Source: Pseudaquidulcibacter saccharophilus (GTDB lineage: Bacteria > Pseudomonadota > Alphaproteobacteria > Caulobacterales > Aquidulcibacteraceae). From it: 64,000 nt of DNA. Location of the stretch: positions 310,001 through 374,000 of the forward strand of contig NZ_JAHWUS010000003.1 of assembly GCF_019455445.1 (NCBI RefSeq), written 5' to 3'. The position numbers were made by a program, and so were the translations under genes. Below are positions 28,059 to 44,319 of the stretch, in pieces (positions within the stretch are counted from its first letter, which is position 1; each line of letters opens with the position of its first letter). A model generated the notes under the pieces. That model had not been told where the DNA came from, did not search any database, and saw only the letters and a list, made by a program, of their open reading frames with translations.

Positions 28059-29681
28059 ATGCCCAAAACCTCAATCTTGATAAATCAAAAATTTAATGCC
28101 TATGAGGTTGCGCGTCATAATGTTGATTTAGATTATGCTGCGTTGCATGCACATATAAAAAATCCAGATGCAACATATTTACGGTTTCAAAATTTTTTGC
28201 CGACTGTTTTGGTTGGCGTTAATCAAGCCTTTGAACCAGAGGTTCGCGAAAGCTATTGTGAACGGCACGAAATTGCAACTTTGCGCCGCCCAAGCTGTGG
28301 CGGGGCAATTTATTTAGATGATAATCATTTTTGCTTTAGTCTAATAACTAACATTGAAAATCTTGGGTTTAATTTTACTTCTGCGCTGGAAAATAGTGCA
28401 AATTTGGTTGCTAAAGCATTAGAAAATATTGGCGTTAAAAGCCATTTTAAAGCACCAAATGATCTTGAAAATAGCAAAAGCCAAAAGATTGCATCGGTCT
28501 TTGGGAAATTGATTGGCAATAGTTTTTATGTCTTTGTTTCAATAATTAAAAATCTGGATATGAAAACCACTATGCAAGCACTATTAGTGCCTACTGAAAA
28601 GCTAACTGTTACAGGCCTTGAAACCGCAAGTGGACGCATGACCTCGCTAAACAATGAATTGGGGCGTGACATTAGCGATAATGAGATAAAAGCGATAGTT
28701 TCTCAAATCATTGGCACGCATTTTTCTCTGGCAGAGGCGCCAAGCATCCCATTAACAATGCCTGATGATTTTGGTAGTTGGCGTATGGGTGAAAACTCAT
28801 ATGAAACCAAAGATAAGAATAAGGGCGCAACCCTTCGCCTTAATATTGCCTATGAAAGTGATAATGTTAGAGCCATTAAATTTGCGACAGACGGGCATTT
28901 TACACCTGATGATGCATTGAAAAATCTATGTAAAATCGCATCTGGGCATTCGATTACAGAATTGCCAAAAATTGCCAAAGATTTTTTCAACATAAATCAA
29001 ATTGAGTTTGTTGGTTTTAATCGTGGCGATATAGAGATGCTAATTAAGCGTGCGCTTGCCAAATGGGAAATAAAAAATTTATTCCAGCTAAATAATGATG
29101 AAGCTACTTCAATAATGCTTGCTGGTGAAAATATTGATGCAAACTCAATCCTTGAGACTGCTAGTGTGATGTTGGTACCCTATTGTGCCAAACCTAACTG
29201 GTGCAAATGGCGTCATACAATTGACTGTATCGAATGTGGCAAGTGTGAAGTAGGGGACGCCTATAAAATGGCGCGTGAGCGTAATTTAGAAGTTGTTACC
29301 ATCATGAATTATGAGCATTTAGTTGATACTTTGGGGAAAATGAAACAAGCCAATGTTTCATCTTATGTGGGCATGTGCTGTGGCGAGTTTTTCTTGAAAA
29401 GGCATCACGCATTTCGTGACTGTGGTATGGATGCAGTTTTAATTGATATAGAGGGTGCTAATTGTTACGAATTAAATGAAGAGCACCTTGCATATCAAGG
29501 TGCATTCAAAGCCGAAGCCATGCTTGACTTGCCCATTGTCGAGAAGATTATGAATGAAGTGCCGGTTAGGGATATTGCAACAAAAACTTGTATTACCGGT
29601 CTTATAAAACGCCCGCATGAAATTTATGGGCCAAAACATGATTGCAGCTTTTGTAATAACAATAAAAAACGCGCCCAATAA
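28059..29681 (+). CDS. Lipoate-ligase-like domain fused to a Cys-rich DUF116-like domain
   Basis: The protein is 540 aa. Residues 1-230 resemble LplA, with RRPSCGGAIYLDD at 77-88 (the usual GGG is CGG) and a Lys at 143 in SQKIAS at the position of the catalytic lysine. The usual HxGTLL strand is degenerate (VFVSIIKNLD). Residues about 235-340 match the small C-terminal LplB-type domain. From about 370 the sequence turns Cys-rich, with C376, C382, C390, C393, C396, C440, C441, C455 and C469, like DUF116, followed by C511, C529 and C532. That pattern suggests an Fe-S cluster or redox role. It converges on the lbpA gene. It could modify or sense lipoyl-LbpA; the function is unknown. Confidence 0.75.
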   Translation: MPKTSILINQKFNAYEVARHNVDLDYAALHAHIKNPDATYLRFQNFLPTVLVGVNQAFEPEVRESYCERHEIATLRRPSCGGAIYLDDNHFCFSLITNIENLGFNFTSALENSANLVAKALENIGVKSHFKAPNDLENSKSQKIASVFGKLIGNSFYVFVSIIKNLDMKTTMQALLVPTEKLTVTGLETASGRMTSLNNELGRDISDNEIKAIVSQIIGTHFSLAEAPSIPLTMPDDFGSWRMGENSYETKDKNKGATLRLNIAYESDNVRAIKFATDGHFTPDDALKNLCKIASGHSITELPKIAKDFFNINQIEFVGFNRGDIEMLIKRALAKWEIKNLFQLNNDEATSIMLAGENIDANSILETASVMLVPYCAKPNWCKWRHTIDCIECGKCEVGDAYKMARERNLEVVTIMNYEHLVDTLGKMKQANVSSYVGMCCGEFFLKRHHAFRDCGMDAVLIDIEGANCYELNEEHLAYQGAFKAEAMLDLPIVEKIMNEVPVRDIATKTCITGLIKRPHEIYGPKHDCSFCNNNKKRAQ

Positions 29682-29690
29682 AGGGCGCGT
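29669..29690 (-). terminator. Terminator of the lbpA transcript, overlapping the stop codon of the convergent gene
   Basis: ACGCGCCC-aataaa-GGGCGCGT is an 8-bp perfect stem. On the minus strand it is followed by a T-run (complement of AATAAAAAAC), so it terminates transcription coming from lbpA. The stop codon of the upstream plus-strand ligase/DUF116 gene lies in its loop region. It is weak on the plus strand. Confidence 0.85.
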
Positions 29691-29713
29691 CTCGATGGAA
29701 CTTTTAAAAATTA

Positions 29714-30154
29714 TTATGCGCAGCCAGCAAAACCATCGGCAGCCATTTTTTCTTCATATGGCGCGCCAACATCTGTTCCTTTGGTAAGGCCACCTTTTAC
29801 TTCATCCCAATTTGCTGGTTGTAAAATTACCATCCAGCCAGCATCATAGGGGTCAGAGTTTGCGGTATTTGGTTTGGCCATTAAATCCGTATTGACCTCA
29901 ACCACTTCACCAGCAGCAAGCGACTTTGCAGGGCCAACCCATTTTCCAGATTCGATGGTTGCGCATGATTTGCCTGCATCAACGCTTTTTCCAACTTTTT
30001 TAGGCGTAAAAGCAACAATTTCACCGGCAAGAGCGGTTGCAACAGAAGTCATTCCAAGTTTCACTCTGCCATCGCCCAATTCACGAAACCAAATATGGTT
30101 TGGAACATCATATAATAAATCATCTGGTAAATTGCATCCGCGTACAATTGTCAT
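29714..30154 (-). CDS. lbpA: LbpA-type lipoate-binding protein (GcvH-like)
   Basis: This 146-aa protein has a lipoyl-domain fold like glycine cleavage H protein. The candidate lipoyl lysine is K71 in TIESGKWVGP, which replaces the ESVKAAS seen in GcvH. Then GEVVEVN and NSDPYDAGWMV follow as in H proteins. Cys7, Cys64 and Cys145 (FAGCA) are also present. It lacks glycine-cleavage neighbours (gcvT, gcvP). LbpA proteins carry sulfur on lipoate in sHdr-type sulfur oxidation. Neighbouring DsrE and TusA genes and a lipoate assembly operon support that role. There is no sHdr gene in this window. Confidence 0.85.
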   Translation of the reverse strand: MTIVRGCNLPDDLLYDVPNHIWFRELGDGRVKLGMTSVATALAGEIVAFTPKKVGKSVDAGKSCATIESGKWVGPAKSLAAGEVVEVNTDLMAKPNTANSDPYDAGWMVILQPANWDEVKGGLTKGTDVGAPYEEKMAADGFAGCA

Positions 30155-30286
30155 TGTATTCTTCCTATTAAAGCATCAGAAAATGATATTAATATCAATT
30201 TCTAATATTATAAACAACGCTAATATATTAACAATGTGACGGAAAAGCGCAATCATGTATTTTACTGCGATTTCCGCCAAATTGAC

Positions 30287-30664
30287 TTAATATGTAAGAA
30301 CTTTGACGTCTTCTTCCATAATTTGTTCAATTACATATGCGCCGCCAACAACGCCTTCACATTCAGGGATAAGATCGTCTTCAGTCATGTCGAACAAATC
30401 AAGGTTTGGTGTACAAGAATAGAATTTTGCGCCCGCGTCAGCAGCGTCCTTGATAAACTCATAAACAGATTTTGGTGAGCCTTCTTTGACGAAAAGTTTT
30501 TCGGCAACACCTTTTTTCATAAGGCGCCCTGCGGTTGCTGTGCAAATAACCTCTACCTCATAATCCATTGCTGCTGCAACGGTCGCTTGAAAGAAAGGTG
30601 CGCCCAATTCTTCGCCGTTACGTGGATCGGTATTTGCCAATATTATCATTAACTTGCTTGCCAT
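30287..30664 (-). CDS. DsrE-family sulfur carrier-like protein
   Basis: Started at ATG 30664, behind a TGGAGGATAAA ribosome-binding site, the protein is 125 aa (MASKLMIILANTDPRNGEE). It has a DsrE/DsrF-like Rossmann fold. Cys84 in FYSCTPNLDLF aligns with the conserved sulfur-carrying Cys of DsrE3A-type proteins (compare ACQMTMDLF in the second DsrE gene of this window). C41 and C102 are additional. It is upstream of lbpA with a 132-bp gap that probably holds the lbpA promoter. It may hand persulfide sulfur to TusA or LbpA. Confidence 0.8.
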   Translation of the reverse strand: MASKLMIILANTDPRNGEELGAPFFQATVAAAMDYEVEVICTATAGRLMKKGVAEKLFVKEGSPKSVYEFIKDAADAGAKFYSCTPNLDLFDMTEDDLIPECEGVVGGAYVIEQIMEEDVKVLTY

Positions 30665-30725
30665 TTTATCCTCCAGGAAATTGTATATAAAAATTAAATT
30701 ATATCCTAAAAAACTAATATAAAAA

Positions 30726-30763
30726 TAGATTTTATGGGCGCTTTTAAAGGCGCCCATAATCTA
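30726..30763 (-). terminator. Terminator after the FadL-type gene
   Basis: The minus strand reads TAGAT-TATGGGCGC, a CTTTAAAA-type loop, GCGCCCATA-ATCTA, then T-rich sequence. It ends the transcript from the outer-membrane protein gene and separates it from the dsrE-like gene. Confidence 0.85.
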
Positions 30764-30774
30764 CTGAGGGGTTG

Positions 30775-32097
30775 TTATTTACCGAACTTATGTACCCAGC
30801 CAAAAGTTACTTCTAACTGATGCATATAAAGTTCATTGGTGTGGTAAGGGTTTGCCCCAGCGGGAGTGACTTCAATACCTCTAACTTTGGATTCAGGAGA
30901 ATAGGTAATGCCAAAGTCAAATGAATTTGCGTCACTAGTTTTGTAATTTAAGCCACCTGCAAGGTGAAGTTTTTGAACACCCGGTGCAAGAATGTTAAGG
31001 GTTACATCTTCAGGACCAATTGGGTTATTGTTTGAAGAAATACCGCCACGTAATGTGATTGCATCGTTTAATTTATGGATGACACCAAGTTTGTAAACAT
31101 CAACATCATCCCATCCAAATCCTGGTCCACCTGCCATACCAAACCATGCAGGCGCAGATGTAGAATTACCAATTGCGCCAACATCAGAATAGCCGATATG
31201 ACGATATGCTAATAAAAATTTGGTGTTGTCATTAAGTTTATATGCAAAACCAACATTTAAATCATCGGGAATGTCAAAATCTCCACGATCGGCAAACAAA
31301 CCAGAATATGATTTAAAGCGAGACATGTTGATTTTTGGCTGATAAGAAATGCCAAGGTCAAGATTAGGTGTTAAATTTGCTTGTAGACCAAGTTTAACGC
31401 CAAAACCATGAGAATCATCAAATCCATTATTGGTCATATAGCCTGGAGTTGCACCATACATCGCGCCCATTTGGTCAAACATGCCAAGGCCGTATGATTT
31501 AAACATTTGATAAGCAAACATTGGTGAAATGCCAACTGTAACCTTATCGTTTAGTTTACGTGCATAAGTTGCGCTTACAAACAATTGTGTAAGGTTAACA
31601 CCAACTTTGCCGCCGCAGAAAACACCTTCACACGGCATTGATGTTTCAGGTGATGTGTAAACGGTGCGTGCAAGCTTATCATTATATGATGTTGTCATGC
31701 CGCCGTTGCCGTACATGTTAACTGCAAATGCAGACATATCATCAATCTGGCGTACATAACCGAATGCAGGGACGGGGAAATAATTAAGGCTGCTTTCAAC
31801 CTTGCCATCCGGTGTAAACGATGGGTAGCCTGTTTGTGTTGTTCCTTTAAAGCCACGTACAGGATTGAATAAAGTTGCGCTTAGTGCAAGTTCATCACCA
31901 ATACCAACAATCCCTGCGGGGTTTAATGATGCGCCCATTGCATCATCTGCTGCGGCAACATCGGCGCCAGCAACAGCTTTTGATTTTGCGCCCGCGCCAT
32001 TTTGAAAATAACCTTCTGTCGCAAAAGCAGGTGCGCCATAAACAAGGCATGCGACAGCAGATGCCATTAAGGCATTTCTTAAACTTATATTTTTCAT
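30775..32097 (-). CDS. FadL/TodX-family outer membrane transport protein
   Basis: This 440-aa protein has a signal peptide (LRNALMASAVACLVYGAPAFA) and the FadL-family N-terminal hatch signature (NGAGAKSKAVAGADVAAADDA with SLNPAGI). A long C-terminal beta-barrel ends in an aromatic/basic strand (FGWVHKFGK). FadL proteins admit hydrophobic compounds across the outer membrane. Its placement between tusA and dsrE genes suggests it may import a hydrophobic sulfur-containing substrate, but that is inference; FadL members also import fatty acids and aromatics. Confidence 0.85.
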   Translation of the reverse strand: MKNISLRNALMASAVACLVYGAPAFATEGYFQNGAGAKSKAVAGADVAAADDAMGASLNPAGIVGIGDELALSATLFNPVRGFKGTTQTGYPSFTPDGKVESSLNYFPVPAFGYVRQIDDMSAFAVNMYGNGGMTTSYNDKLARTVYTSPETSMPCEGVFCGGKVGVNLTQLFVSATYARKLNDKVTVGISPMFAYQMFKSYGLGMFDQMGAMYGATPGYMTNNGFDDSHGFGVKLGLQANLTPNLDLGISYQPKINMSRFKSYSGLFADRGDFDIPDDLNVGFAYKLNDNTKFLLAYRHIGYSDVGAIGNSTSAPAWFGMAGGPGFGWDDVDVYKLGVIHKLNDAITLRGGISSNNNPIGPEDVTLNILAPGVQKLHLAGGLNYKTSDANSFDFGITYSPESKVRGIEVTPAGANPYHTNELYMHQLEVTFGWVHKFGK

Positions 32098-32141
32098 TGT
32101 ATTCTCCTAATTTACATTAGAGAGGTGGGATAAATTGATGA

Positions 32142-32369
32142 TTAGGCAGATTTTTTAATCAGGAATTTAAAGACACCATCGCCTTCAGATTGTTCAACAA
32201 TTTCATTTCCGGTTGTTCGGCAAAATGCCGCGAAATCTTTCACCGAGCCAGGATCCGTTGCCAGAACTTCTAATACTTGTCCTGCTTCAAGAGTTTGCAA
32301 CATTTTTTTTGTTTTTAGGATTGGTAGCGGACAGTTTAGACCTTTTGCGTCAAGAAGTTGGTCAGCCAT
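32142..32369 (-). CDS. tusA: TusA-family sulfur carrier protein
   Basis: The protein is 75 aa. LDAKGLNCPLPILKTKK has the CPxP motif, with Cys13 as the sulfur carrier. The start has a good AAAGGAAAT box. TusA relays persulfide sulfur from rhodanese or DsrE-type proteins. It is 19 nt downstream of the DsrE3A-like gene, the dsrE-tusA pair typical of sulfur-oxidation clusters. Confidence 0.93.
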   Translation of the reverse strand: MADQLLDAKGLNCPLPILKTKKMLQTLEAGQVLEVLATDPGSVKDFAAFCRTTGNEIVEQSEGDGVFKFLIKKSA

Positions 32370-32388
32370 TTTATTTCCTTTCTTCTCG

Positions 32389-32886
32389 TTAGATATACAA
32401 ATTTATATGAGACTTTAATGCAGTTTCCATGTAGCTAGCAGCACCGCCATATTCGACGCCGTCAATCATATCTTCGTGTTTGTATTCAAACAGATCCATG
32501 GTCATTTGGCAGGCGATAATGCGCACGTCAGAAAGAATTGCGGCTTCACGTAATTCTTCGATGGAAGCGACCCCTTTTTTCTTAATCATGTCTTTCATCA
32601 TTGATGAAGTAAGGTCGGTCATGCCGGGAAGGGCGCCAAGAAGATTTGGCATTTGCATATGACCGCCACCCATTGGCATTTCCATTGCAGGATTGCCCAA
32701 AGTGGATACTTTCAAATTTAGGTCTTTTTTCAAAAGTCCAAGACCATAAAAAGTGAAGAACATTGTAACTTCAACATCCATTGCAGCCGCAGTTGTGGCC
32801 AAAATGAACGGAGGGTAGCCCCAGTCCAAGGTTCCTTTAGTAACAATGATAGACATTGATTTGGGATTGATTATATTTTCTGTCAC
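32389..32886 (-). CDS. DsrE3A-type sulfur transfer protein
   Basis: The protein is 165 aa from a GTG start with GGAGG 6 nt upstream (MTENIINPKSMSIIVTKG). The conserved Cys126 lies in IIACQMTMDLF, the signature Cys of DsrE3A-type proteins. Met- and Gly-rich segment PMGGGHMQMPNLLG lies at residues 71-84. It is the first gene of the transcript followed by tusA and the FadL gene. DsrE3A proteins bind and transfer sulfane sulfur together with TusA. Confidence 0.87.
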   Translation of the reverse strand: MTENIINPKSMSIIVTKGTLDWGYPPFILATTAAAMDVEVTMFFTFYGLGLLKKDLNLKVSTLGNPAMEMPMGGGHMQMPNLLGALPGMTDLTSSMMKDMIKKKGVASIEELREAAILSDVRIIACQMTMDLFEYKHEDMIDGVEYGGAASYMETALKSHINLYI

Positions 32887-33200
32887 TTTTTCCCTCCAGT
32901 AAGGAGCAAGATATTTGTTGAATGCCCCTTATTCATACGAATTGAGAATCCATAACCACCCGGGCTATAAAAACTCTAGAACATTCCAACCTTGCAACAA
33001 TGTTGCTTATGACGTGTTTTTTCTAATATTCAGCGATTAGAAAAAAATATTTTCCAACCGCATAAGAATCTTGTAGCATAAAATTATAACTTGCGCATTT
33101 TAGAAAAACCTAATTTTGATGCGACATTTTGTAGTAGTTATTAGAATATTCTTATGAAATTGAATTGGCATACAAAAATTGCGCTTTTAAAAGGCTTGCT
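32887..33200. promoter_or_regulatory. Divergent promoter region of the dsrE3A-like and HDAC-like genes
   Basis: The gap of about 314 bp between divergent genes is strongly AT-rich. It contains an 11-bp inverted repeat (TTTTTTCTAAT-attcagcg-ATTAGAAAAAA, 33017-33046) and a dyad AGAATATTCT (33142-33151). Either could be an operator. The region most likely carries promoters in both directions. Confidence 0.5.
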
Positions 33201-34304
33201 ATGAATAGTTTTTTTGTTTCAAATCGCTATTTTTATTCTGCTGAGTGGGCTTCTAATCATCCACTAGCAATCTCACGGCAAACTAAGTTTTACGATTTAT
33301 GTCAAGTTTTAGGGTGGTTGCCAAAAGAAAAAATATTGCAGTGCAATGCTTTGGGTGAGGAAAAAATTGCCGCAATCCATGATTATGATTATGTAATAAC
33401 CCTTAAAAAAGCCTCTAGTGGGATAATTATTGATCCTGATGTTCGACTAAAGTATAATATTGGCAATTTTGAAAATCCAATTTTTTCTGGAATTTATGAA
33501 CGCGCTGCCGCGTCGGTTGGTGGCTCGGTTGCTGCTGCTAATGCTGTTATGAATGGTGGAATTGCTTTTCACCCTGCAGGTGGGACACACCATGGTAAAC
33601 GTAATAAGGCATCGGGTTTTTGCTATTTTAACGATCCAATATTCGCGATTAAAACCTTTATTGATAATGGTTTTTCACGGGTAGCATATGTTGATTTGGA
33701 TGCCCATCATGGTGACGGCGTTGAAGAATATTTTAAAAATGACGACCGTGTTTTTATTTCATCAATTCATGAGGAGAATCGATGGCCACATAGTGGGAAA
33801 CTAGACAGTAATATAAAGGGACACATAATAAATATACCAGTAAGTTCTGGAATAAATGACGATGAATATAACCTTATTGTGGATGCCCTATATATAAATG
33901 TGTGTAAGTTTGCGCCACAAGCGATCGTGGTTACGGCTGGCGCTGATTGCCTTAATGGCGACCCATTATCAAAAATGGAAATTTCCAATGTTGCATTCTG
34001 GAATGCAGTGCAGAGATTTTGTTCGCTTGCGCCGGCACGGGTGGTTCTTGGTGGTGGTGGTTATAATCCATGGACCGTCACGAGGGGGTGGGCAGGATTA
34101 TGGGCAAAGATAAATGGCTATGAAATCCCTGCAATATTACCCATTGAAATTAAAGAAATGTTTGCCGCAATGTCATGTGACTTGATAGATGATGACGAGG
34201 TTAATCCTGAATGGTTAGACACAATAATCGATAAGGAAAATCATGGTGACATTAGGACGCACTTTATTGAATTATCCTATAAAATAAGGGATTTTGCAGG
34301 ATAG
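33201..34304 (+). CDS. Histone-deacetylase-fold deacylase (AcuC/HDAC superfamily)
   Basis: The protein is 367 aa (MNSFFVSNRYFYSAEWASNH). It has HDAC-family motifs: FHPAGGTHHGKRNKASGF (catalytic His pair H130, H131), VAYVDLDAHHGDGVEE (zinc ligands D167, H169), GADCLNGDPL (third zinc ligand Asp) and VLGGGGYNP. The superfamily includes acetoin-utilization AcuC and polyamine deacetylases; the substrate cannot be told here. It sits between the sulfur genes (divergent) and the lipoate-assembly operon (same strand, 105-bp gap). A link to lysine acylation of LbpA is speculative. Confidence 0.85.
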   Translation: MNSFFVSNRYFYSAEWASNHPLAISRQTKFYDLCQVLGWLPKEKILQCNALGEEKIAAIHDYDYVITLKKASSGIIIDPDVRLKYNIGNFENPIFSGIYERAAASVGGSVAAANAVMNGGIAFHPAGGTHHGKRNKASGFCYFNDPIFAIKTFIDNGFSRVAYVDLDAHHGDGVEEYFKNDDRVFISSIHEENRWPHSGKLDSNIKGHIINIPVSSGINDDEYNLIVDALYINVCKFAPQAIVVTAGADCLNGDPLSKMEISNVAFWNAVQRFCSLAPARVVLGGGGYNPWTVTRGWAGLWAKINGYEIPAILPIEIKEMFAAMSCDLIDDDEVNPEWLDTIIDKENHGDIRTHFIELSYKIRDFAG

Positions 34305-34409
34305 GCGTTGTGTTGCAATGATAAAATGTTTAGCGAAAATGCATATTTTAGCATATTATAAAAAAATAATTTAACACGCTAATAAATATATTAAAAATGT
34401 GAGGCGTTT

Positions 34410-35438
34410 ATGAGCTGGATAGACAATCTCAAAAAGATTGAAGCGTTTGAACGTGCAGAGTTTGACCCTGCTTTGGTTGCCAAAATGGAGGCGCGAGGGG
34501 CAAGTTCATATTCGAAAATTCGCTTCTCAAGCCCAACATTTAAAGAGTATGAATCAGATGAAATTTCCGGATGCGGTAAAAATTCATTTCCGGCATTTTC
34601 TATTACTGCTGCGGGGTGCGCACTAAATTGCGATCATTGCCAGAAGAAAATTCTTGAACCGATGATACCGGCAACTAAGCCAGAGATTTTGGATCAAAAA
34701 GTCCGTGATATGGTTATGTTACAAGGGCTACAAGGATTTTTGTTATCTGGAGGTTCCGATAAAAAGAATGAAATCAATTATGAAAGATTTTATCCAGTTA
34801 TAGAGGGTTTAAAACGTGATTTTCCTGAGATGAAAATTGCTATTCATACTGCGTTGCTTGATGAAAAGGCGGCAAAACGTATGGAGGCTGCGGGCGTAGA
34901 TACTGCAATGACCGATATAATAGGGGCGCAGGAAACCATTAATCAGGTTTATCATCTAGACCGTAGCGTTGATGATTTTGAGCAAACCTTGGCGGCATTA
35001 TGCACCACAAAAATGGATATTGTTCCGCATATTGTCATTGGTCTGCATTATGGAAAAATATTGGGCGAAGCCAGCGCCTTAGAGATGGTGGCGCGTTACC
35101 CTGTTAATTCGCTGGTTTTGGTGGTTATTATGCCATTTTATGCCAAACCGAATACTTTTACTGTTCCCGATACCACCGAAGTTGGTGAATTTTTCTTAAA
35201 AGCGCGCGATAAAATGGGGCAACGTAAATTATTGCTTGGTTGCGCCCGCCCACCAGGGGTTCACAAACTTGTTACCGATGCCTATGCCATAATGGCAGGA
35301 GTTGATGGTATTGCGTTCCCGGCGGATGGCGCCGTAAGTGTTGCCAAAATGATTGGTCGCGAATTTGAACTTGCCTATTCATGCTGTTCAATCAAGGTTG
35401 GTGGTGATTTAAATATCAGAAAGGCATGTGCCGCATAA
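34410..35438 (+). CDS. Radical SAM lipoyl-assembly enzyme, LipS1-like
   Basis: The protein is 342 aa. The radical SAM cluster motif is C70-C74-C77 (GCALNCDHCQKK, CX3CX2C), with C55 just before and Cys residues in LLGCARPP and AYSCCSIKV at the C-terminal end, which could ligate a second cluster. It resembles the biotin-synthase-like protein used with LipS2 to insert sulfur into octanoyl-LbpA. The assignment to LipS1 rests on gene order (lipS1-lipT-lipS2-sLpl) and on the motifs. Its stop shares one base with the next start (TAATG). Confidence 0.75.
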   Translation: MSWIDNLKKIEAFERAEFDPALVAKMEARGASSYSKIRFSSPTFKEYESDEISGCGKNSFPAFSITAAGCALNCDHCQKKILEPMIPATKPEILDQKVRDMVMLQGLQGFLLSGGSDKKNEINYERFYPVIEGLKRDFPEMKIAIHTALLDEKAAKRMEAAGVDTAMTDIIGAQETINQVYHLDRSVDDFEQTLAALCTTKMDIVPHIVIGLHYGKILGEASALEMVARYPVNSLVLVVIMPFYAKPNTFTVPDTTEVGEFFLKARDKMGQRKLLLGCARPPGVHKLVTDAYAIMAGVDGIAFPADGAVSVAKMIGREFELAYSCCSIKVGGDLNIRKACAA

Positions 35439-36556
35439 TGACAATGCAATGCCAAAATTGTGATGTATTGGTTATCGGCCTCGGCCCTGCGGGTGCTGTT
35501 GCTGCAGCCGAAGCGGCAAAAGCTGGTTTGAAAACTATTGGCTTTGACGGAAAGTCACGGGCGGGATACCCGGTGCAATGTGCGGAATTTGTGCCATCAT
35601 TGTTAACCAATGAAACATTGGCGGCATATCACCAATCACAGCAATTAATTGATAAAATGGTGACTTTTGTAGAAGATGAATTGCCAGATGAAAAAATTCC
35701 ATTTTCTGGGCGAATTATTGACCGTGAAAAATTTGATGCCGAACTTTGTGAGATTGCAAAAAACTGCGGGGCAGAGCTTCATTTTGGTAAAAAACTTATC
35801 AAACTTGATGGCAATAAAGCCGTATTTAGTGACGGCACATCAGTAATTGCGAAAGTGATAATTGGCGCTGATGGGCCGCATTCATTCGTTGGAAAATCTG
35901 TTGGGCTTATCAATAATGAAACCCTTGAAACTAGACAGATTACAATACAATTATTAAGCCCAATAAAATCAACAGACATCTATTTATCCGCAAAATATAT
36001 TGGCGGTTATGGTTGGTTGTTTCCGAAAAATGAAACTGCCAATCTTGGAATTGGTGTCGCGCATGAAAAGCGTCATCTTTTAAAACCATTATTGGAAGAA
36101 TTACACTCGCGTTTAATTGCCGAAGGACGTGTTGGTAGTGAGATACTATATACAACAGGCGGTGCAATTCCGGTTGGTGGTATGATAAAACCTTACGCGA
36201 AATCTGGTGATGCAACAATCATCCTTGCTGGTGATGCTGCGGGTCTTACTAATCCTATAAGTGGCGCAGGGATTCCTGCGGCAGTAGTTTCAGGGCGCAT
36301 GGCGGGGGAAACCGCTGCTAGCCTATTAAATGGAAATATTGAAGCTGCTGAAGATTACGAACAAGAATTACATGAATTATTTGGTACGTCATTAAAACGT
36401 GCGCGTGCCCATTTTGAAAAACTATTGGCAATTCATAAAGACGGTGTCCCAAATCCTGCGCAATTGCGTAATGGTTGGATTGCCTATGACGAATATTGGT
36501 CTGAAAAATTTAATAATGACGCGAAAGGCGAGACATATGACCTGCTTGAAGCCTGA
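35438..36556 (+). CDS. FAD-dependent oxidoreductase, LipT-like (geranylgeranyl-reductase family)
   Basis: From ATG 35438 the protein is 372 aa (MTMQCQNCDVLVIG); it has the dinucleotide-binding GLGPAGAVAAAEAAKAG near residue 14, GADGPHSFVGKSVG, and the LAGDAAGLTNPISGAGIPAA motif of the GGR-type FAD family. Such proteins reduce double bonds or supply electrons. In lipoate-assembly clusters a protein of this type lies between lipS1 and lipS2. It is coupled to the upstream gene (TAATG) and overlaps the next by 20 nt. Confidence 0.75.
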   Translation: MTMQCQNCDVLVIGLGPAGAVAAAEAAKAGLKTIGFDGKSRAGYPVQCAEFVPSLLTNETLAAYHQSQQLIDKMVTFVEDELPDEKIPFSGRIIDREKFDAELCEIAKNCGAELHFGKKLIKLDGNKAVFSDGTSVIAKVIIGADGPHSFVGKSVGLINNETLETRQITIQLLSPIKSTDIYLSAKYIGGYGWLFPKNETANLGIGVAHEKRHLLKPLLEELHSRLIAEGRVGSEILYTTGGAIPVGGMIKPYAKSGDATIILAGDAAGLTNPISGAGIPAAVVSGRMAGETAASLLNGNIEAAEDYEQELHELFGTSLKRARAHFEKLLAIHKDGVPNPAQLRNGWIAYDEYWSEKFNNDAKGETYDLLEA

Positions 36557-37835
36557 AAATAATCCTACCAGAGAAACCGACAAAAATGAGTTGGATTTCA
36601 ATCAGTTTGATATTATGAACCCGCGCGCACCAACCCCGACCCCAAAAGAAAAAATGAATGGTGCCGAGGTTAAAAAAAGTGGTTCTGCACCACATGGGGT
36701 TTATTTGCCTAATAATAATATTCTAACCCCAAATATGACATCACCAGAATATGTGCAGCTTTCAACTGCGGCGGCGATTACGCTTGGAATTATGCCTGGT
36801 AAAATGCACCGTTGCGAATGTACACGCTGTCTTAATATCCTTTTGACTTATCCAGAAGGATGTCGTGCAAACTGCGCATATTGTGGTCTGGCACGCCACC
36901 GTGAGGCCGAAAGAAATTATGCCGATCGCAATTTTATTCGTGTTGATTGGCCGGCGGTTCCCATGGAACAAATTGCACAAACCATTGGCAAAGACCCCGC
37001 AAATTCACCTTTCCACCGTATGTGCATTTCAATGATTACCCACCCAAAATCAGATGCTGACACTATTGCAGTTTTAAAAACTTGGACAAAATACGTGTCG
37101 CCCGATGCTATGCCGATTTCAATCCTTTCAAATCCTACAACAATGGGTCGTGACGATGTAAAAAATCTAAAGGATTTGGGGGCAGAGATTTTCACTGTTG
37201 CCTTTGATGCCGCCACCCCAGAAATTTTTGACCGTACCCGTGGCAAAGGTGTCGATAGCCCGCATAAATGGTCAAAATATTGGGAAATTATGGAAGATGC
37301 ACGAGATATTTATGGCAAAGGTAAATTTGGTGCGCACCTAATCGTTGGTATGGGGGAAACCGAGTTTGAAATGCTTTCTACTATCCAACAAATTGTTGAT
37401 ATGGGCGGTCATTCACATTTGTTCTGCTTCTATCCCGAGCAGGGCTCATTAATGGATCACCTTCCGGCGACACCACGTGACCAATGGCGCAGGGTGCAAT
37501 TGGCACGTTATTTAATTGATTATTACAATGTCAGAGTTGAGCAAATGTCATTTGACAATTTGGGGCGTGTAATTGGTTATGGTCTGCCTGATGCTGAATT
37601 AGAAGTGGTTATTAATGCAGGAATTGCGTTCCGTACCTCTGGCTGCCCTGGAAAATTTGCCGAGGATATTTCCGCTTGTGATCGTCCTTATGGTGATAGC
37701 CCGCCATCAGATATCGCAAGTTATCCATTCCAGCCAGAAGCGCATGATTTACGTAAAATCCGTAAACAATTAAACCGTGAAAATCCTGCTGATCCTTATA
37801 TAGAAGGCGAAGAGTTCGATTATCTTGATGAATAA
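36537..37835 (+). CDS. Radical SAM lipoyl-assembly enzyme, LipS2-like
   Basis: The start ATG 36537 (MTCLKPENNPTRE) has AAAGG 9 nt upstream and overlaps lipT by 20 nt; 432 aa. Two Cys groups are visible: an upstream C93-C95-C98 set (HRCECTRC) and the radical SAM C109-C113-C116 set (GCRANCAYCGLARH). The first could bind an auxiliary cluster that is sacrificed for sulfur, as in LipA and LipS-type enzymes. The body matches biotin-synthase-related proteins. No LipA-like gene occurs in this window. Confidence 0.75.
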   Translation: MTCLKPENNPTRETDKNELDFNQFDIMNPRAPTPTPKEKMNGAEVKKSGSAPHGVYLPNNNILTPNMTSPEYVQLSTAAAITLGIMPGKMHRCECTRCLNILLTYPEGCRANCAYCGLARHREAERNYADRNFIRVDWPAVPMEQIAQTIGKDPANSPFHRMCISMITHPKSDADTIAVLKTWTKYVSPDAMPISILSNPTTMGRDDVKNLKDLGAEIFTVAFDAATPEIFDRTRGKGVDSPHKWSKYWEIMEDARDIYGKGKFGAHLIVGMGETEFEMLSTIQQIVDMGGHSHLFCFYPEQGSLMDHLPATPRDQWRRVQLARYLIDYYNVRVEQMSFDNLGRVIGYGLPDAELEVVINAGIAFRTSGCPGKFAEDISACDRPYGDSPPSDIASYPFQPEAHDLRKIRKQLNRENPADPYIEGEEFDYLDE

Positions 37836-38892
37836 ACTACGCTTTATAGATAGTGGGCTACGCACAGGTCGTGAGAATATTGCCCTTGATGCGGCGATGT
37901 TAGAGGCGCGTAAAATTGGCGCTATTCCCAATACGTTGCGCTTTATCCACTTCAAACCCGTTGCATTAGTTGGGCGGCATCAAGATGTTTCGCAAGAAGT
38001 AAACATTGCTGCATGTAATGAATTTGGCGTTGAGATTGGACGGCGCATAACCGGTGGCGGGGCCATATATTTTGATGAAGGTCAGCTTGGGTGGGCGTTG
38101 ATTTGCGATAAAAAATCGCTTGGTACGCCAAACCTTGCAGAAATTACCCAAAAAATTTGTGAAGCGGCGGCAAAAGCACTTTGCAAATTAGGCGTAAATG
38201 CCAAATTTCGCCCGCGTAACGATATTGAGGTTGACGGTAAAAAAATATCTGGCACAGGCGGATTTTTTGATGATGATATTTTAATGTATCAAGGAACGGT
38301 TTTAATCGACCTTGACCCACAAAAGATGGCGCGGGTTTTAAATCTTCCGGTTAATAAATTATCGCAACAAGATAATAAGGATATGGCATCACGCGTTACT
38401 TGTCTAAAAAAAGAATTGGGTTTTATTCCAAAATTATCAGATATAAAATCAGCTTTTATTAGCGCATTCCAAGATGAAATGGGCTTTGAAATTTATGAAG
38501 ACGTAATAAGCCATGTTGAAAATAAACTAGCGCTTGATTGCTATAATGATGAAATTGGCACTGATGAATTTGTGTATGAATTAAATGATTTAGGACGTGA
38601 CGACGGCGTTTATTGTGGCCTTAATAAAACCAAGGGCGGTGTGGTAAAGGTGTTTTTGCGCAAAGAAGGTCCGCAAAATGAGCGTATCCGTGAGGTAGTT
38701 TTCACGGGCGATTTTTTCATTACTCCGCCACGAGTGATAATGGATTTAGAAGCATCTTTGCGCGGTACAAAATTAGAAGAGATTGAAACCAATATTCAAA
38801 GTTTTTTTGAGAATGTAAAAGACTTGGGTCTTTTATCAATTGCACCCCAAGATTTTGCGAATGCAATTAAAATGTCTGAAAAATTATCTTAA
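37828..38892 (+). CDS. Lipoate:protein ligase, sLpl(AB)-like
   Basis: The protein is 354 aa from ATG 37828, which overlaps the lipS2 stop by 8 nt. LplA motifs are intact: RRITGGGAIYFD at 72-83, RPRNDIEVDGKKISGTGG with the catalytic Lys at 139, and QGTVLIDLD at 155-163. A C-terminal LplB-like accessory domain follows (about 235-330). It would load octanoate or lipoate onto LbpA before LipS1/S2 act. It contrasts with the ligase-DUF116 fusion, in which the same motifs are eroded. Its 3' end overlaps the convergent hypC-like gene by 9 nt. Confidence 0.85.
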   Translation: MNKLRFIDSGLRTGRENIALDAAMLEARKIGAIPNTLRFIHFKPVALVGRHQDVSQEVNIAACNEFGVEIGRRITGGGAIYFDEGQLGWALICDKKSLGTPNLAEITQKICEAAAKALCKLGVNAKFRPRNDIEVDGKKISGTGGFFDDDILMYQGTVLIDLDPQKMARVLNLPVNKLSQQDNKDMASRVTCLKKELGFIPKLSDIKSAFISAFQDEMGFEIYEDVISHVENKLALDCYNDEIGTDEFVYELNDLGRDDGVYCGLNKTKGGVVKVFLRKEGPQNERIREVVFTGDFFITPPRVIMDLEASLRGTKLEEIETNIQSFFENVKDLGLLSIAPQDFANAIKMSEKLS

Positions 38893-39138
38893 TTTCTCGT
38901 GGAGATGGGCAGTCTTTTCCAGCTCAAGAATCTCATCATAAGTTTCCCATGCTTGTATAGCTTCGTCTTCTGTCATTTTTTGCATGGCGTTTCCATTGTG
39001 AATCATGATGAAATCACCCGGCTTTAGAACTTCATGTTCTAGCAAAAAAATATTGGCCTGACGTGTGATTCCACGTGCTTCACATTCAGCTAGCAGTCCA
39101 TTTATTTTTGTGATTTTCATAGGAATACCAAGGCACAT
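38884..39138 (-). CDS. HypC-family hydrogenase maturation chaperone (second copy)
   Basis: This 84-aa protein begins MCLGIPMKITKING, with the Cys2 characteristic of HypC/HupF. It is on the opposite strand from the rest of the hydrogenase genes and converges on the sLpl gene, overlapping it by 9 nt. It differs from the hypC at 50058 by a longer acidic C-terminus, and may be the dedicated chaperone of the large subunit (HupF-like). It has AAGGGG 8-9 nt upstream of its start. Confidence 0.85.
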   Translation of the reverse strand: MCLGIPMKITKINGLLAECEARGITRQANIFLLEHEVLKPGDFIMIHNGNAMQKMTEDEAIQAWETYDEILELEKTAHLHEKLR

Positions 39139-39391
39139 TTTAAGACCCCTTCATCACCAAAATTTTGCAGTTAGACATAAAAAATATTTTGCTAATGATA
39201 TTTATAAAAATAGATAAATCTTTCAAAGACTTTTGTAATTATCACTACTCTAGATGTAATAAAATTACAATATTATTTATTTAGCGAAGGCTAATATGTC
39301 GCACGTAAATCATTGGTTCTTTTATTGATTCCATCTATGCAAAGGTTTACAAAAAGATTGCATTTCGCCTTGATAGAAAGGGGGAAAGCAA
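39139..39391. promoter_or_regulatory. Divergent promoter region of the hypC-like gene and hydrogenase operon
   Basis: The AT-rich gap of 253 bp contains related TGTAAT repeats: TGTAAT at 39234-39239, and TGTAAT-aaa-ATTACA at 39255-39269. A longer arm pair TTGTAATT/AATTACAA spans 39233-39270. This is a plausible operator for hydrogenase regulation. I found no convincing sigma-54 -24/-12 element. Confidence 0.4.
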
Positions 39392-39898
39392 ATGTCTGAA
39401 CTGAAAAAAACTATTCTAATTTTGGGTGTTGGCAATAATTTATTGTCTGATGATGGCTTTGGAATTCATGTCATCGAAAGCCTTCGTGATGCCCATGAAA
39501 TTGAAAATAATTCTATTCTAATTGATGGCGGTACTATTGGCCTCAACCTCCTTCCTGATATCGAGGATGCGGAGCATTTGATTGTGGTTGATGCAGCCGA
39601 AATGGGACTTGAACCAGGTGAGCTACGCTTGTTTGAAGGCGAAGATATGGATGACCATCTAAGCAAACATAAAACCACCGTGCATGAGGTTGCAATGCGT
39701 GACTTATTGTTTGCGGCACGGCTATCCGGAAAAATGCCAAAAACCCGCGCTTTGATTGCGGTTCAACCTGCATCATTGGATTGGGGTATGAATCCAACAC
39801 CGGTGGTTATGCCTTCGGTATCAAAAGCATGCGAAATGGTCAAAAATTTGGTGGAAAGGAGGCTTGTAGATGACAAACACACCCTCATCATGTCATGA
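39392..39898 (+). CDS. Hydrogenase maturation protease (HyaD/HupD family)
   Basis: This 168-aa endopeptidase removes the C-terminal peptide of the large subunit after nickel insertion. Metal-sensing residues fit the family: D20/D21 in NNLLSDDGFG, D67 in VVDAAEMG, and H98 in TTVHEVAM. It has an AAAGGGGGAAA ribosome-binding site. It is the first gene of the plus-strand hydrogenase operon. Confidence 0.92.
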   Translation: MSELKKTILILGVGNNLLSDDGFGIHVIESLRDAHEIENNSILIDGGTIGLNLLPDIEDAEHLIVVDAAEMGLEPGELRLFEGEDMDDHLSKHKTTVHEVAMRDLLFAARLSGKMPKTRALIAVQPASLDWGMNPTPVVMPSVSKACEMVKNLVERRLVDDKHTLIMS

Positions 39899-40331
39899 AA
39901 ATGATGTCCCACTAACTGGTTTGAGTGTTGCGCTTTTGCCTGAAATTCTTGTGCACTTGCAGGATTTATCTGAAAAGTTGAAAAAAGGCCCGGTGTTTGC
40001 ACAAGAAATTATAAGTCTTCGTGGGCTTCCAATGACAAGGGAAGATATTGAAGACCTTGATAAACATTTGGGACGCGGCGAAGTGAATGCAAAAGTTGAG
40101 GTTGCCGGCAATAGTGACGTTTGGGAAACCTCTTATTCAGGTGTTTGGCGGGTTCGCCATTTTGGTACTGATGAACGTATTCTTGTTGACGATATTGTTA
40201 TCGCTGTAATCCCAGAAATTCTGATGGCACATAAGGACGATATTTCGGCTTCTGTGCTGCGAATGAATGATGCAATTCTTAATCTGCAAAATGATGAGAT
40301 TGCACCTAATCCAACTAAATCGCTCGATTAA
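39870..40331 (+). CDS. HupH/HyaF C-terminal-like maturation protein
   Basis: This 153-aa protein has the C-terminal HupH_C-like region (VFAQEIISLRGLPMTREDIE, and DVWETSYSGVWRVRHF, then ILVDDIVIAVIPEIL). Full HyaF/HupH proteins are about 280 aa, so this is a short form containing one domain. The start overlaps the protease gene by 29 nt, with a GGAAAGGAGG site. It may act in small-subunit maturation or the handover of cluster assembly. Confidence 0.75.
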   Translation: MTNTPSSCHENDVPLTGLSVALLPEILVHLQDLSEKLKKGPVFAQEIISLRGLPMTREDIEDLDKHLGRGEVNAKVEVAGNSDVWETSYSGVWRVRHFGTDERILVDDIVIAVIPEILMAHKDDISASVLRMNDAILNLQNDEIAPNPTKSLD

Positions 40332-40344
40332 TATAGGAGTGGTC

Positions 40345-41484
40345 ATGGCAAAATTATTTAAAAATATGTTTGCGACTTCCGAATCCACAGCTTTAACTCT
40401 TGGAGAGGAATTAGCACAGAAGGGGGTTTCAAGACGGCAAATTTTGAAATTTTCTTCTTATGTTGCGGCATTGATGGCGTTGCCGGCATCATATTCAACT
40501 GCGATCGCAGAAAGCCTTAGCAAGGCAAAACGGCAGTCGGTTATCTGGCTGTCATTCCAAGAATGTACAGGATGCACAGAATCCATAACCCGTTCATTTT
40601 CTCCTAGCCTTGAAGATCTTATTTTTGACTTCATTTCATTAGATTATTCTGAAGCTCTAATGAATGTTTCTGGTGAAGCTGCTGAGGCTGCTCGTAAGCA
40701 AGCAATGGAAGAAAACAAAGGCAAATATGTCGTTGTTGTAGAGGGTTCAATCCCGCTCGATAAAGATGGAATTTATTCGGCATCTGGTGGCCATACCAAC
40801 CTTGATGTTCTTAAAGAAGTTGCCAAAGATGCAATGGCGATTATTTCAATGGGAACATGCGCATCATTTGGTGGTATTCCGGCAGCATTTCCAAACCCAA
40901 CTGGTGCAGTAGGGGTTCATGAAATAATCAAAGATAAACCTATTATCAACGTACCTGGTTGCCCACCAATTCCAGAAGTGATGACCGGAACAATTGCCTT
41001 CTTATTATCCTTGGGTAAAATTCCAGAGCTTGACCATTTGGGTCGTCCAAAAGCGTTCTATGGCGATAATATTCACGATCGATGCTATCGTCGTCCGTTC
41101 TATGAGCGTGGTGAGTTTGCCAATAGTTTTGACGATGAGGGTGCACGCAAGGGTTATTGTCTGTTTAATTTGGGTTGCAAAGGTCCTGTGACCTATAATG
41201 CGTGTGCAACAATTAAATGGAATGGTGGCGTATCATTCCCAATCCAATCTGGTCACGGCTGTCTCGGCTGCTCTGAACCTGGATTTTGGGATAAGGGTAG
41301 CTTTTATTCGCCATTATCAACACCAACTTCGGGTCTTGGTAAGGCCGCATTGGGCGCAGCTGCTGTTGGTACCGCTGGTGCCGTTGTGGCAAGTCTTGTT
41401 CAACGTAAACGGCGTGAAGATATCCTAAAAGCCGCAGCAGTTCCAAAACCAGCCGAAACAAAAATGGGGGCAGATGATGAGTGA
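40345..41484 (+). CDS. [NiFe] hydrogenase small subunit, Tat-exported
   Basis: The protein is 379 aa from ATG 40345. A twin-arginine signal lies at residues 28-36 (VSRRQILKF). Fe-S-binding Cys motifs are CTGC at 74-77, then SMGTCASFGG, NVPGCPP and the C-terminal CLGCSEPGFWD. A Gly/Ala-rich transmembrane anchor near residue 335 is followed by a basic tail (QRKRRED), which places the enzyme at the periplasmic face of the membrane. It pairs with the large subunit and passes electrons to the membrane subunits. Confidence 0.95.
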   Translation: MAKLFKNMFATSESTALTLGEELAQKGVSRRQILKFSSYVAALMALPASYSTAIAESLSKAKRQSVIWLSFQECTGCTESITRSFSPSLEDLIFDFISLDYSEALMNVSGEAAEAARKQAMEENKGKYVVVVEGSIPLDKDGIYSASGGHTNLDVLKEVAKDAMAIISMGTCASFGGIPAAFPNPTGAVGVHEIIKDKPIINVPGCPPIPEVMTGTIAFLLSLGKIPELDHLGRPKAFYGDNIHDRCYRRPFYERGEFANSFDDEGARKGYCLFNLGCKGPVTYNACATIKWNGGVSFPIQSGHGCLGCSEPGFWDKGSFYSPLSTPTSGLGKAALGAAAVGTAGAVVASLVQRKRREDILKAAAVPKPAETKMGADDE

Positions 41485-42139
41485 TTTACTTGATTTTGCA
41501 CGTGGTCCTGCTTTGCAGGTTTCCGTAATGATTTTTATTTTTGGCGTGCTTTATAGGCTGATAAGTCTATTTTTGACACCAAAAAACTTTATTGCTTCGC
41601 CAGCACGTGAAAATGTCAAAGGTGCATTTGGTGCGGGCGTTGGCGAAATTATGCGTCGAATGGTTCCAGATAAGGAATATTTGCGCAAAGAAATGTTCGC
41701 CTTCCTTAATGGTTGGGCATTCCATATTGGCTTGGCAATTACTGTTTTTGGTCTTGCCGGACATATTATGTTTTTCAAGAAAATATTAGGATTTGGCTGG
41801 TGGAATTTGCCTAGCAATTTCGTGATGCTTGCCGGTGTTATTACATTATTCTCATTGGTTGCATCATTGGCTCATCGTCTAACCGACCCAGTATTACATA
41901 AACTGTCAACATTGGATGATTATCTATCAGGTGGTCTAACCGTGCTTCCGGTTGCAACTGGATTATTGGCAACAATGCATCTTGGTTTGCGTTATGAAAC
42001 ATTAATTGCAATCCACATTTTATCAGTTTGTATTTTCTTGATTTACTTCCCGTTTGGCAAGTTAATGCATGCATTCTTAGTCTTTGTAACCCGCGCAAAA
42101 ACCGGTGTCGAAATGGCAAGGAAAGGCGTGAAACTATGA
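41474..42139 (+). CDS. Isp1-like cytochrome b subunit (NarI/HdrE-like)
   Basis: This 221-aa protein has about five membrane helices, starting after a short cytoplasmic N-terminus (PALQVSVMIFIFGVLYRLIS). His residues in helices (AFHIGLAITVFGLAGHIMF, SLAHRLTDPVLHKL, ATMHLGL, IAIHILSVC) are likely heme b ligands. It overlaps the small-subunit gene by 11 nt. In Isp-type hydrogenases this subunit carries electrons through the membrane toward Isp2 and quinone. Confidence 0.85.
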   Translation: MMSDLLDFARGPALQVSVMIFIFGVLYRLISLFLTPKNFIASPARENVKGAFGAGVGEIMRRMVPDKEYLRKEMFAFLNGWAFHIGLAITVFGLAGHIMFFKKILGFGWWNLPSNFVMLAGVITLFSLVASLAHRLTDPVLHKLSTLDDYLSGGLTVLPVATGLLATMHLGLRYETLIAIHILSVCIFLIYFPFGKLMHAFLVFVTRAKTGVEMARKGVKL

Positions 42140-42170
42140 GACATTTTATTTTCCTTAAGGAGATTTCAGC

Positions 42171-43904: not shown

Positions 43905-43920
43905 TGACAGGAGGCAAATT

Positions 43921-44319
43921 ATGAAGTTTTCACACAAAAATACTGCCATATTAGTTGCTTCTATGGCATTGATTTCTACCCCAGCATTTGCACATGTTGG
44001 CGTTGGGTATGAACAAGGTTTACCGCACGGGATTGAACATTTCTTTAGTGGCCTTGACCATATCGCCTATGCTGCGCTTGCTGGAATAATGACTGCACTA
44101 GCAACCAAAAAACTCTGGAGTAATCTAGTGGCATTATCTGCTTTTGCGGTTGTTTTTGCGATGATTCACGAAGTCACCTTATTTGGCGATGACGGGTTCA
44201 ATAGTTTTAGCCTTGGTATGATGTTGGGTGAAATGGCAATCATGATGGTTGGCATGGGAATTACCCGCATTCTTACCAATGCAAGAAAATCAATAAGGGG
44301 AATTAGCAATGGAAAATAA
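43921..44319 (+). CDS. Short HupE/UreJ-like membrane protein
   Basis: This is a 132-aa protein from ATG 43921. It has a signal peptide (ILVASMALISTPAFA) and the HupE signature HGIEHFFSGLDHIAYAALAG, then two or three more hydrophobic segments. HupE/UreJ proteins are about 190 aa and mediate nickel transport; this copy lacks roughly one third of that length, so it may be a reduced form. It sits between the large subunit and isp2, overlapping isp2 by 11 nt. Confidence 0.75.
   Translation: MKFSHKNTAILVASMALISTPAFAHVGVGYEQGLPHGIEHFFSGLDHIAYAALAGIMTALATKKLWSNLVALSAFAVVFAMIHEVTLFGDDGFNSFSLGMMLGEMAIMMVGMGITRILTNARKSIRGISNGK

Follow-up and report, generated by a model that had tools for sequence, protein, structure and literature searches.

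A divergent lipoate-ligase gene fused to a DUF116 domain and its link to the lipoyl protein LbpA

The window, a stretch of 64,000 nucleotides from Pseudaquidulcibacter saccharophilus, contains a second, divergent lipoate-ligase gene that continues in the same reading frame into a cysteine-rich DUF116 domain and faces lbpA. The encoded protein probably works on or for LbpA. We tentatively favor the reading that it is an accessory enzyme of LbpA lipoylation, in which a tethered, probably Fe-S-binding domain would assist sulfur insertion, possibly at low oxygen. Some sulfur-oxidising bacteria thus probably have an undescribed LbpA helper, perhaps used when oxygen is low. In the literature searched, most subscription papers being outside its scope, neither a description of an Lpl-DUF116 fusion nor DUF116 joined with lipoate was found; DUF116 itself is mentioned in PMC5898192.

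Make-up and neighborhood of the fusion gene

The fusion gene comprises the following features:

28059..29681, + strand: Lpl(AB)-DUF116 fusion gene, 540 aa, ATG start, single ORF (AlphaFold2 model with mean pLDDT 89.7 and pTM 0.88)
28113..28706, + strand: LplA catalytic domain, residues 19-216 (Pfam PF21948, LplA-B_cat, E 5e-26, over the cut-off)
28821..29057, + strand: LplB-like accessory domain, residues 255-333 (NF053749, 24.2 bits, E 3e-5, below its cut-off of 65)
29142..29471, + strand: DUF116 domain, residues 362-471 (PF01976, 32.8 bits, Pfam cut-off 25)
29226..29246, + strand: CX2CX2C motif (C390, C393, C396), conserved Cys of the alignment

The modules follow one another in the order LplA, LplB-like and DUF116. 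The first-pass annotation had proposed a ligase and a DUF116-like domain in one ORF, and an intact 540-codon gene with Pfam matches to both halves was indeed found; it had overlooked the LplB domain, the presence of a normal sLpl(AB) gene at a distance of 8 kb and, in other genomes, the association with the ubiUV operon. The structural model was built with 48 relatives, and its ligase part was matched by Foldseek to 6jom, 1vqz and 5icl (E about 1e-18). The LplB-like domain gave a profile match to the LplB subunit 3r07_C (E 5e-8) and its model agreed with that subunit to 1.5 Å across 83 columns (Foldseek). As this domain is present, the ligase is an Lpl(AB) and not LplA alone; the LplA domain, the LplB domain and the catalytic Lys with the Arg/Asn-Asp adenylate motif of this class were all found.

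An intact ortholog with 86% identity is carried by a genome of the same genus (G003). Comparison of the two genomes gave dN/dS values of 0.10 for LplA, 0.155 for LplB and, in the DUF116 core, 0.017, which indicates purifying selection on both halves. A frame error or pseudogene was ruled out by the intact ortholog and by the values of 0.10 and 0.017, and the domains were in one frame throughout the relatives.

The motifs of the LplA domain are located at residues 76-82 (RRPSCGG), 133-135 (PND), 143 (Lys) and 178-182 (PTEKL). As first described, Lys143 is kept, the GGG of the RRxxGGG motif is replaced by CGG (Cys80) and the GTLL strand is lost, with VFVSII at the HGTLL/QGTLL position. The CGG is private to the window lineage, a Gly being present in 41 of 48 relatives, and the GTLL pattern is lost to varying degrees in the family as a whole, not only in the window. 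The window protein is less likely to be an ordinary ligase because both acyl-pocket motifs, RRxxGGG and (H/Q)GTLL, are absent from it; within the family GGG is mostly kept and GTLL is variable. Two glycine-rich hairpins are rewritten family-wide (KISGTGG to K-[IL]-[AG]-S-x-F and QGTLL to QG/A-x-LL), and the window lineage is more altered than the rest (CGG, VSII).

Ten residues of the ligase half (Gly53, Arg63, Arg77, Gly81, Pro178, Glu180, Lys181, Leu182, Gly186 and Ala190) and the PxEKL..G..A pattern were found in all 48 fusions, Asn134 in 47 and Asp135, Lys143 and Arg193 each in 46. Conservation of this extent across classes speaks for continued use of the pocket, and the ligase half probably remains an enzyme whose pocket is altered. 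Among the three functions offered at first, a ligase with an altered substrate fits best, given an adenylate-binding core conserved in 46-48 of 48 relatives. We consider it highly improbable that the ligase is a decaying sLpl duplicate carried along with a useful DUF116: the long Lpl branches of the fusions and the CGG and VSII changes of the window lineage would suit such decay, but they stand against the LplA dN/dS of 0.10 and the catalytic residues conserved across classes.

The C-terminal half, for which about ten Cys including a CX2CX2C had been reported, has 12 Cys, among them C390-X2-C393-X2-C396. Cys 376, 382, 390, 396, 440, 441 and 469 of DUF116 are present in 48 of 48 fusions and Cys393 in 47. 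With a mean pairwise identity of 0.66 across these fusions the DUF116 core is the most conserved module, followed by LplA (0.40) and the LplB-like domain (0.29), which changes fastest. The Pfam DUF116 model was matched by all 35 family members tested (E<=0.01). The CX2CX2C and further conserved Cys are shared with DUF116 proteins at large (PF01976, arCOG02078, COG1852). Two N-terminal TM segments are described for archaeal members (PMC5898192), whereas in the fusion DUF116 forms the C-terminal domain of a ligase protein. DUF116 was previously predicted to be a metal-binding, flavodoxin-like domain (PMC5898192), and its Cys pattern suggests that it probably binds Fe-S in the fusion. With DUF116 alone, Foldseek returned no confident fold (best E 0.06), and VIA-align gave generic matches, the best to a designed Rossmann 2x2 protein (Z 8.3) and then to type II dehydroquinases (about 7). 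Past the DUF116 core, a tail (window 29589-29681) with the extra cysteines C511, C529 and C532 is common only to several alphaproteobacterial members.

From the end of the fusion gene onward, the window contains:

29666..29693, - strand: terminator-like hairpin between the convergent fusion gene and lbpA (11-bp stem, 7 G-C pairs, pattern match only)
29714..30154, - strand: lbpA, GcvH-like lipoyl protein (GCV_H E 2e-31; 58-75% identity to LbpA of sHdr loci)
30287..30757, - strand: dsrE3C-like gene (47% to the L014 copy)
32142..32369, - strand: tusA (61% to the L014 copy)
32389..32886, - strand: dsrE2 (NF047629, over cut-off)
34410..35438, + strand: lipS1 (NF053742 best match, below cut-off; 66-74% to LipS1 of other alphaproteobacteria)
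35426..36556, + strand: lipT, FAD oxidoreductase (geranylgeranyl-reductase-type model over cut-off; cluster position)
36399..37835, + strand: lipS2 (NF053743 best match, below cut-off; actual start probably further downstream than listed)
37825..38892, + strand: canonical sLpl(AB) (normal motifs, without DUF116, inside the sLpl clade)

The convergence of the fusion gene on lbpA was confirmed, with a gap of 32 bp. It is also present in G003, where the LbpA protein is identical. Since an ordinary sLpl(AB) closes the lipS1-lipT-lipS2 run of the same window, the fusion gene is the second ligase copy. A promoter scan of the window region gave sites no more frequent than in shuffles. A histone-deacetylase-family gene (window 33165-34304) lies upstream of lipS1, as in most alphaproteobacterial LbpA clusters examined. 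The glutamine amidotransferase-like lipX (L223 16178-16870), which follows slpl in most sHdr clusters examined, is missing from the window and Pinisolibacter clusters.

Distribution of the family and co-occurrence with LbpA

When 84,980 species genomes were scanned with an alignment of three DUF116 sequences, 69 loci were recovered, a non-exhaustive set as the scan relied on exact peptide patterns. Lpl and DUF116 were joined in one frame in 67 sequences, namely in 65 of the 69 loci, in the window and in genome G441; the proposed search for this architecture thus recovered at least 65 fusions among the 69 loci, the other four being on contig ends or short records. Wherever the phylum was named in the record, it was Pseudomonadota, and the taxa include Thioalkalivibrio, Ectothiorhodospira, Sulfuriferula, Acidithiobacillus, Gallionellaceae, Acidiferrobacter, Kiloniellales, Oricola and Pinisolibacter. 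No fusion was found on viral contigs or plasmids.

Of 50 fusion genomes, 43 had LbpA (E<=1e-30) and 45 had LipS1, compared to LbpA in 7 of 398 genomes of a Pseudomonadota sample. In that sample DUF116 was found in two genomes, both LbpA-positive (Fisher p 2.7e-4 for co-occurrence, the genomes being related and the counts not independent); when the window's own genome was left out, p was about 0.015 by hand (1/6 vs 0/391, again for related genomes). Among the seven fusion genomes without a full LbpA match, G812 and G837 have sHdrB1, G829 has LipS1, G835 a LipS1 fragment and G803 an LbpA fragment; in the remaining two, the MAGs G802 and G821, none of the LbpA, sHdr and LipS1 markers tested were found. 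Fusions widespread without LbpA, which would have spoken against a link, were therefore not observed: two of 50 fusion genomes lacked every marker.

LbpA, in turn, often occurs without the fusion. Among 47 genomes of the G806 family, 41 have LbpA and 24 have the fusion; of the 41 LbpA-positive genomes, 20 carry the fusion and 21 do not, and it is likewise absent from five of the seven LbpA-positive genomes in the phylum sample. Because so many LbpA-positive genomes are without it, the fusion is accessory and not required for LbpA lipoylation. As a separate observation, fusion-free Ectothiorhodospiraceae often have a further LbpA/GcvH-like gene (about 42% identity; for example G852:C1:1866069-1866443, G875:C12:95562-95939 and similar) that is absent from fusion-bearing ones, which may be phylogeny; in fusion-free Thioalkalivibrio third and fourth LbpA/GcvH-like genes are present.

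In the Lpl tree the fusions form one side of a branch with SH-aLRT 100 and fall outside the sLpl clade. The exception is the Lpl half of G441, the sole genome of its order in the genome set, which is placed inside the sLpl clade (SH-aLRT 100). Here the operon (L014) reads shdr-lbpA1-dsrE-lbpA2-lipS1-(sLpl-DUF116)-lipT-lipS2, with a full shdr set, the ligase has normal motifs including an intact RRVTGGG, and DUF116 keeps all eight Cys. The position of G441 in the DUF116 tree is unsure owing to a long branch, so the arrangement may be ancestral or may have arisen by a domain swap. With either origin DUF116 would act with the canonical LbpA ligase in G441, as it sits on sLpl there.

These data bear on the possibility that the fusion is a working ligase that modifies a different acceptor, such as another lipoyl protein, or attaches a different acyl group, such as scavenged or partly thiolated lipoate; DUF116 would then be a regulatory or structural addition. 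The adenylation core is conserved while both acyl-pocket glycine-rich hairpins are rewritten (KISGTGG to K[IL][AG]S.F), and the genomes examined already have a canonical LbpA ligase, both of which would fit. We nevertheless regard it as unlikely, as the fusion follows LbpA genome by genome and the same DUF116 is found on the canonical sLpl of G441.

LbpA without sHdr and gene contexts in other genomes

sHdrB1 was not found in the window genome (G000, 100% complete) or in G003 (98%). A further genome of the genus, G001, has sHdrB1 and is without the fusion; its sHdr block lies between dsrE3C and lbpA, which adjoin in the window. Pinisolibacter aquiterrae has the same sHdr-less arrangement at the locus together with the fusion (L020, L227). 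As the fusion is present in the sHdrB1-less G000 and G003 and with the Pinisolibacter cluster, it tracks LbpA more closely than sHdr. In two families (Hyphomonadaceae, window 29714-45577; Pinisolibacter, L227 1194-9361), a [NiFe] hydrogenase that includes a membrane anchor and a DsrK/HmcF-like Fe-S subunit adjoins an LbpA/DsrE3C/TusA/DsrE2/LipS1-LipT-LipS2-sLpl cluster without the sHdr block. This gene order suggests that LbpA may work with the hydrogenase module in place of sHdr.

An LbpA without sHdrB1 needs another partner, and the fusion could be a redox partner, sensor or editor, docking through its ligase half while DUF116 reduces or oxidises the lipoyl group of LbpA or takes it off. The convergence with lbpA in the window, the weakly scored Rossmann/flavodoxin-like fold of DUF116 and the occurrence of methanogen DUF116 genes near sulfite reductase genes (PMC5898192) are in line with this. 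On the other hand, a pure docking module need not keep Lys143 and the adenylate motifs, sHdr is present in most fusion genomes and the protein has no known delipoylase fold, so we see little chance of such a role. The link to LbpA made in the first-pass annotation was supported by co-occurrence, by convergent placement, by divergence from lipS1-slpl-lipT-lipS2 elsewhere and by the G441 chimera; the function it assigned was borne out only in part, and sensing, removal or editing of lipoyl-LbpA received no direct support.

The divergent arrangement with lipS1-slpl-lipT-lipS2 was found at L016/L017 and in several Thioalkalivibrio. In 32 of the 58 loci with enough flank, the fusion gene directly follows ubiU-ubiV, often overlapping the ubiV stop, and ubiT is present in 10; ubiU and ubiV at the loci scanned are bona fide by equivalog cut-offs. 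This ubiU-ubiV(-ubiT) operon placement occurs in many beta/gammaproteobacteria and in Acidithiobacillus (L051 1879-5912, L042, L049, L073 and others). Predicted FNR sites have been reported at 87% of ubiTUV loci (PMC11707229). In a weak scan, which missed the motif at five ubiU positive controls, FNR-like sites with one mismatch were found upstream of the fusion in six of 20 loci tested (L036, L052, L056, L066, L064, L067) and none upstream of the fusion, lbpA or lipS1 of the window; in Thioalkalivibrio a site of this kind could instead serve the divergent lipS1. Together, ubiUV placement and FNR-like sites are read as a sign of expression of the fusion at low oxygen in several lineages.

The same placement also feeds the view that the fusion takes part in O2-independent ubiquinone synthesis or in some other anaerobic biosynthesis and that its LbpA link is a lifestyle correlation. 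The 32 of 58 loci downstream of ubiU-ubiV, the nearby nrdD, hemW and mnmL, and a Pirellula protein in which DUF116 is fused to a polyprenyl synthetase (PMC5898192) fit this view. It is rendered improbable by the distribution: ubiTUV is common in Pseudomonadota and known from 1562 genomes (PMC11707229), whereas DUF116 was found in two of 398; the fusion is not beside ubiUV in alphaproteobacteria or most Thioalkalivibrio, and none of the seven loci with lipS1/S2 has ubiUV. Linkage to ubiUV is thus not general in the family. An FkbO/Hyg5-type chorismatase-like gene was observed near the fusion in six loci (L029, L042, L048, L051, L053, L064).

A candidate role in sulfur insertion

In the explanation that we favor, the fusion would belong to the sLpl(AB)-LipS1/S2 lipoylation pathway as an accessory LbpA-modifying enzyme. 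The N-terminal Lpl(AB) half would most likely dock on LbpA and still perform acyl-adenylate chemistry with an altered acyl pocket, and DUF116 would act on the same LbpA. Most plausibly, DUF116 would help LipS1/LipS2 to insert sulfur by supplying electrons, sulfur or replacement clusters, and in several lineages the fusion may be wired to low-oxygen expression. LipS1 and LipS2 each use up an auxiliary [4Fe-4S] cluster and complete about 1-1.5 turnovers when the reductant is a physiological one (PMC9585515). When E. coli was given only lipS1-slpl-lipT-lipS2, LbpA acquired a single sulfur (PMC10332631); these were K90mix genes, whose source may itself lack the fusion. The sacrificial clusters and the one-sulfur stall are what a ligase-delivered, Cys-rich sulfur-insertion helper would fit.

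This explanation draws on the co-occurrence with LbpA and LipS1, the G441 chimera, the divergent and convergent placements, the conserved ligase core, the still stronger conservation of DUF116, the FNR-like sites and the ubiUV(T) placement. Counted against it are the LbpA genomes without the fusion, the CGG and lost GTLL strand of the window copy, the window's lack of an FNR-like site and the possibility that ubiUVT placement means a different pathway. Its most specific form is doubtful: the fusion would be a new component of LbpA-dependent sulfur metabolism, a second LbpA ligase with its own Fe-S module, induced at low oxygen, that passes sulfur, electrons or clusters to LipS1/LipS2 on the acylated protein. 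Were this true, the fusion would fill the place of the regeneration partner proposed to be needed by the two-protein lipoyl synthase. Through the fusion, DUF116, a domain so far without known function, acquires a predicted role, and the most recent of the lipoate pathways gains a probable factor. It bears on the renewal of the LipS1/S2 auxiliary clusters, on the poor second-sulfur insertion in E. coli and on the use of LbpA at low O2 or without sHdr.

NfuA/IscU-type cluster donors renew the sacrificial cluster of the lipoyl synthase LipA. The fusion would play the same part if the favored explanation holds, an analogy of function only. With the sLpl(AB) of sulfur oxidisers (Cao et al., 2018, PMC6067878; Tanabe et al., 2023, PMC10332631), the fusion shares the LplA and LplB layout, the genomes, the linkage to LbpA and LipS1/S2 and the Arg/Asn-Asp/Lys core; it differs in forming a separate, faster-evolving clade, in its rewritten glycine-rich hairpins, in its C-terminal DUF116 and in being a gene of its own alongside sLpl. 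The LplA-LipA fusion (NF053790) likewise joins a ligase to a sulfur-insertion function, but its partner is the radical-SAM LipA where the window fusion, whose match to NF053790 was far below cut-off, has DUF116.
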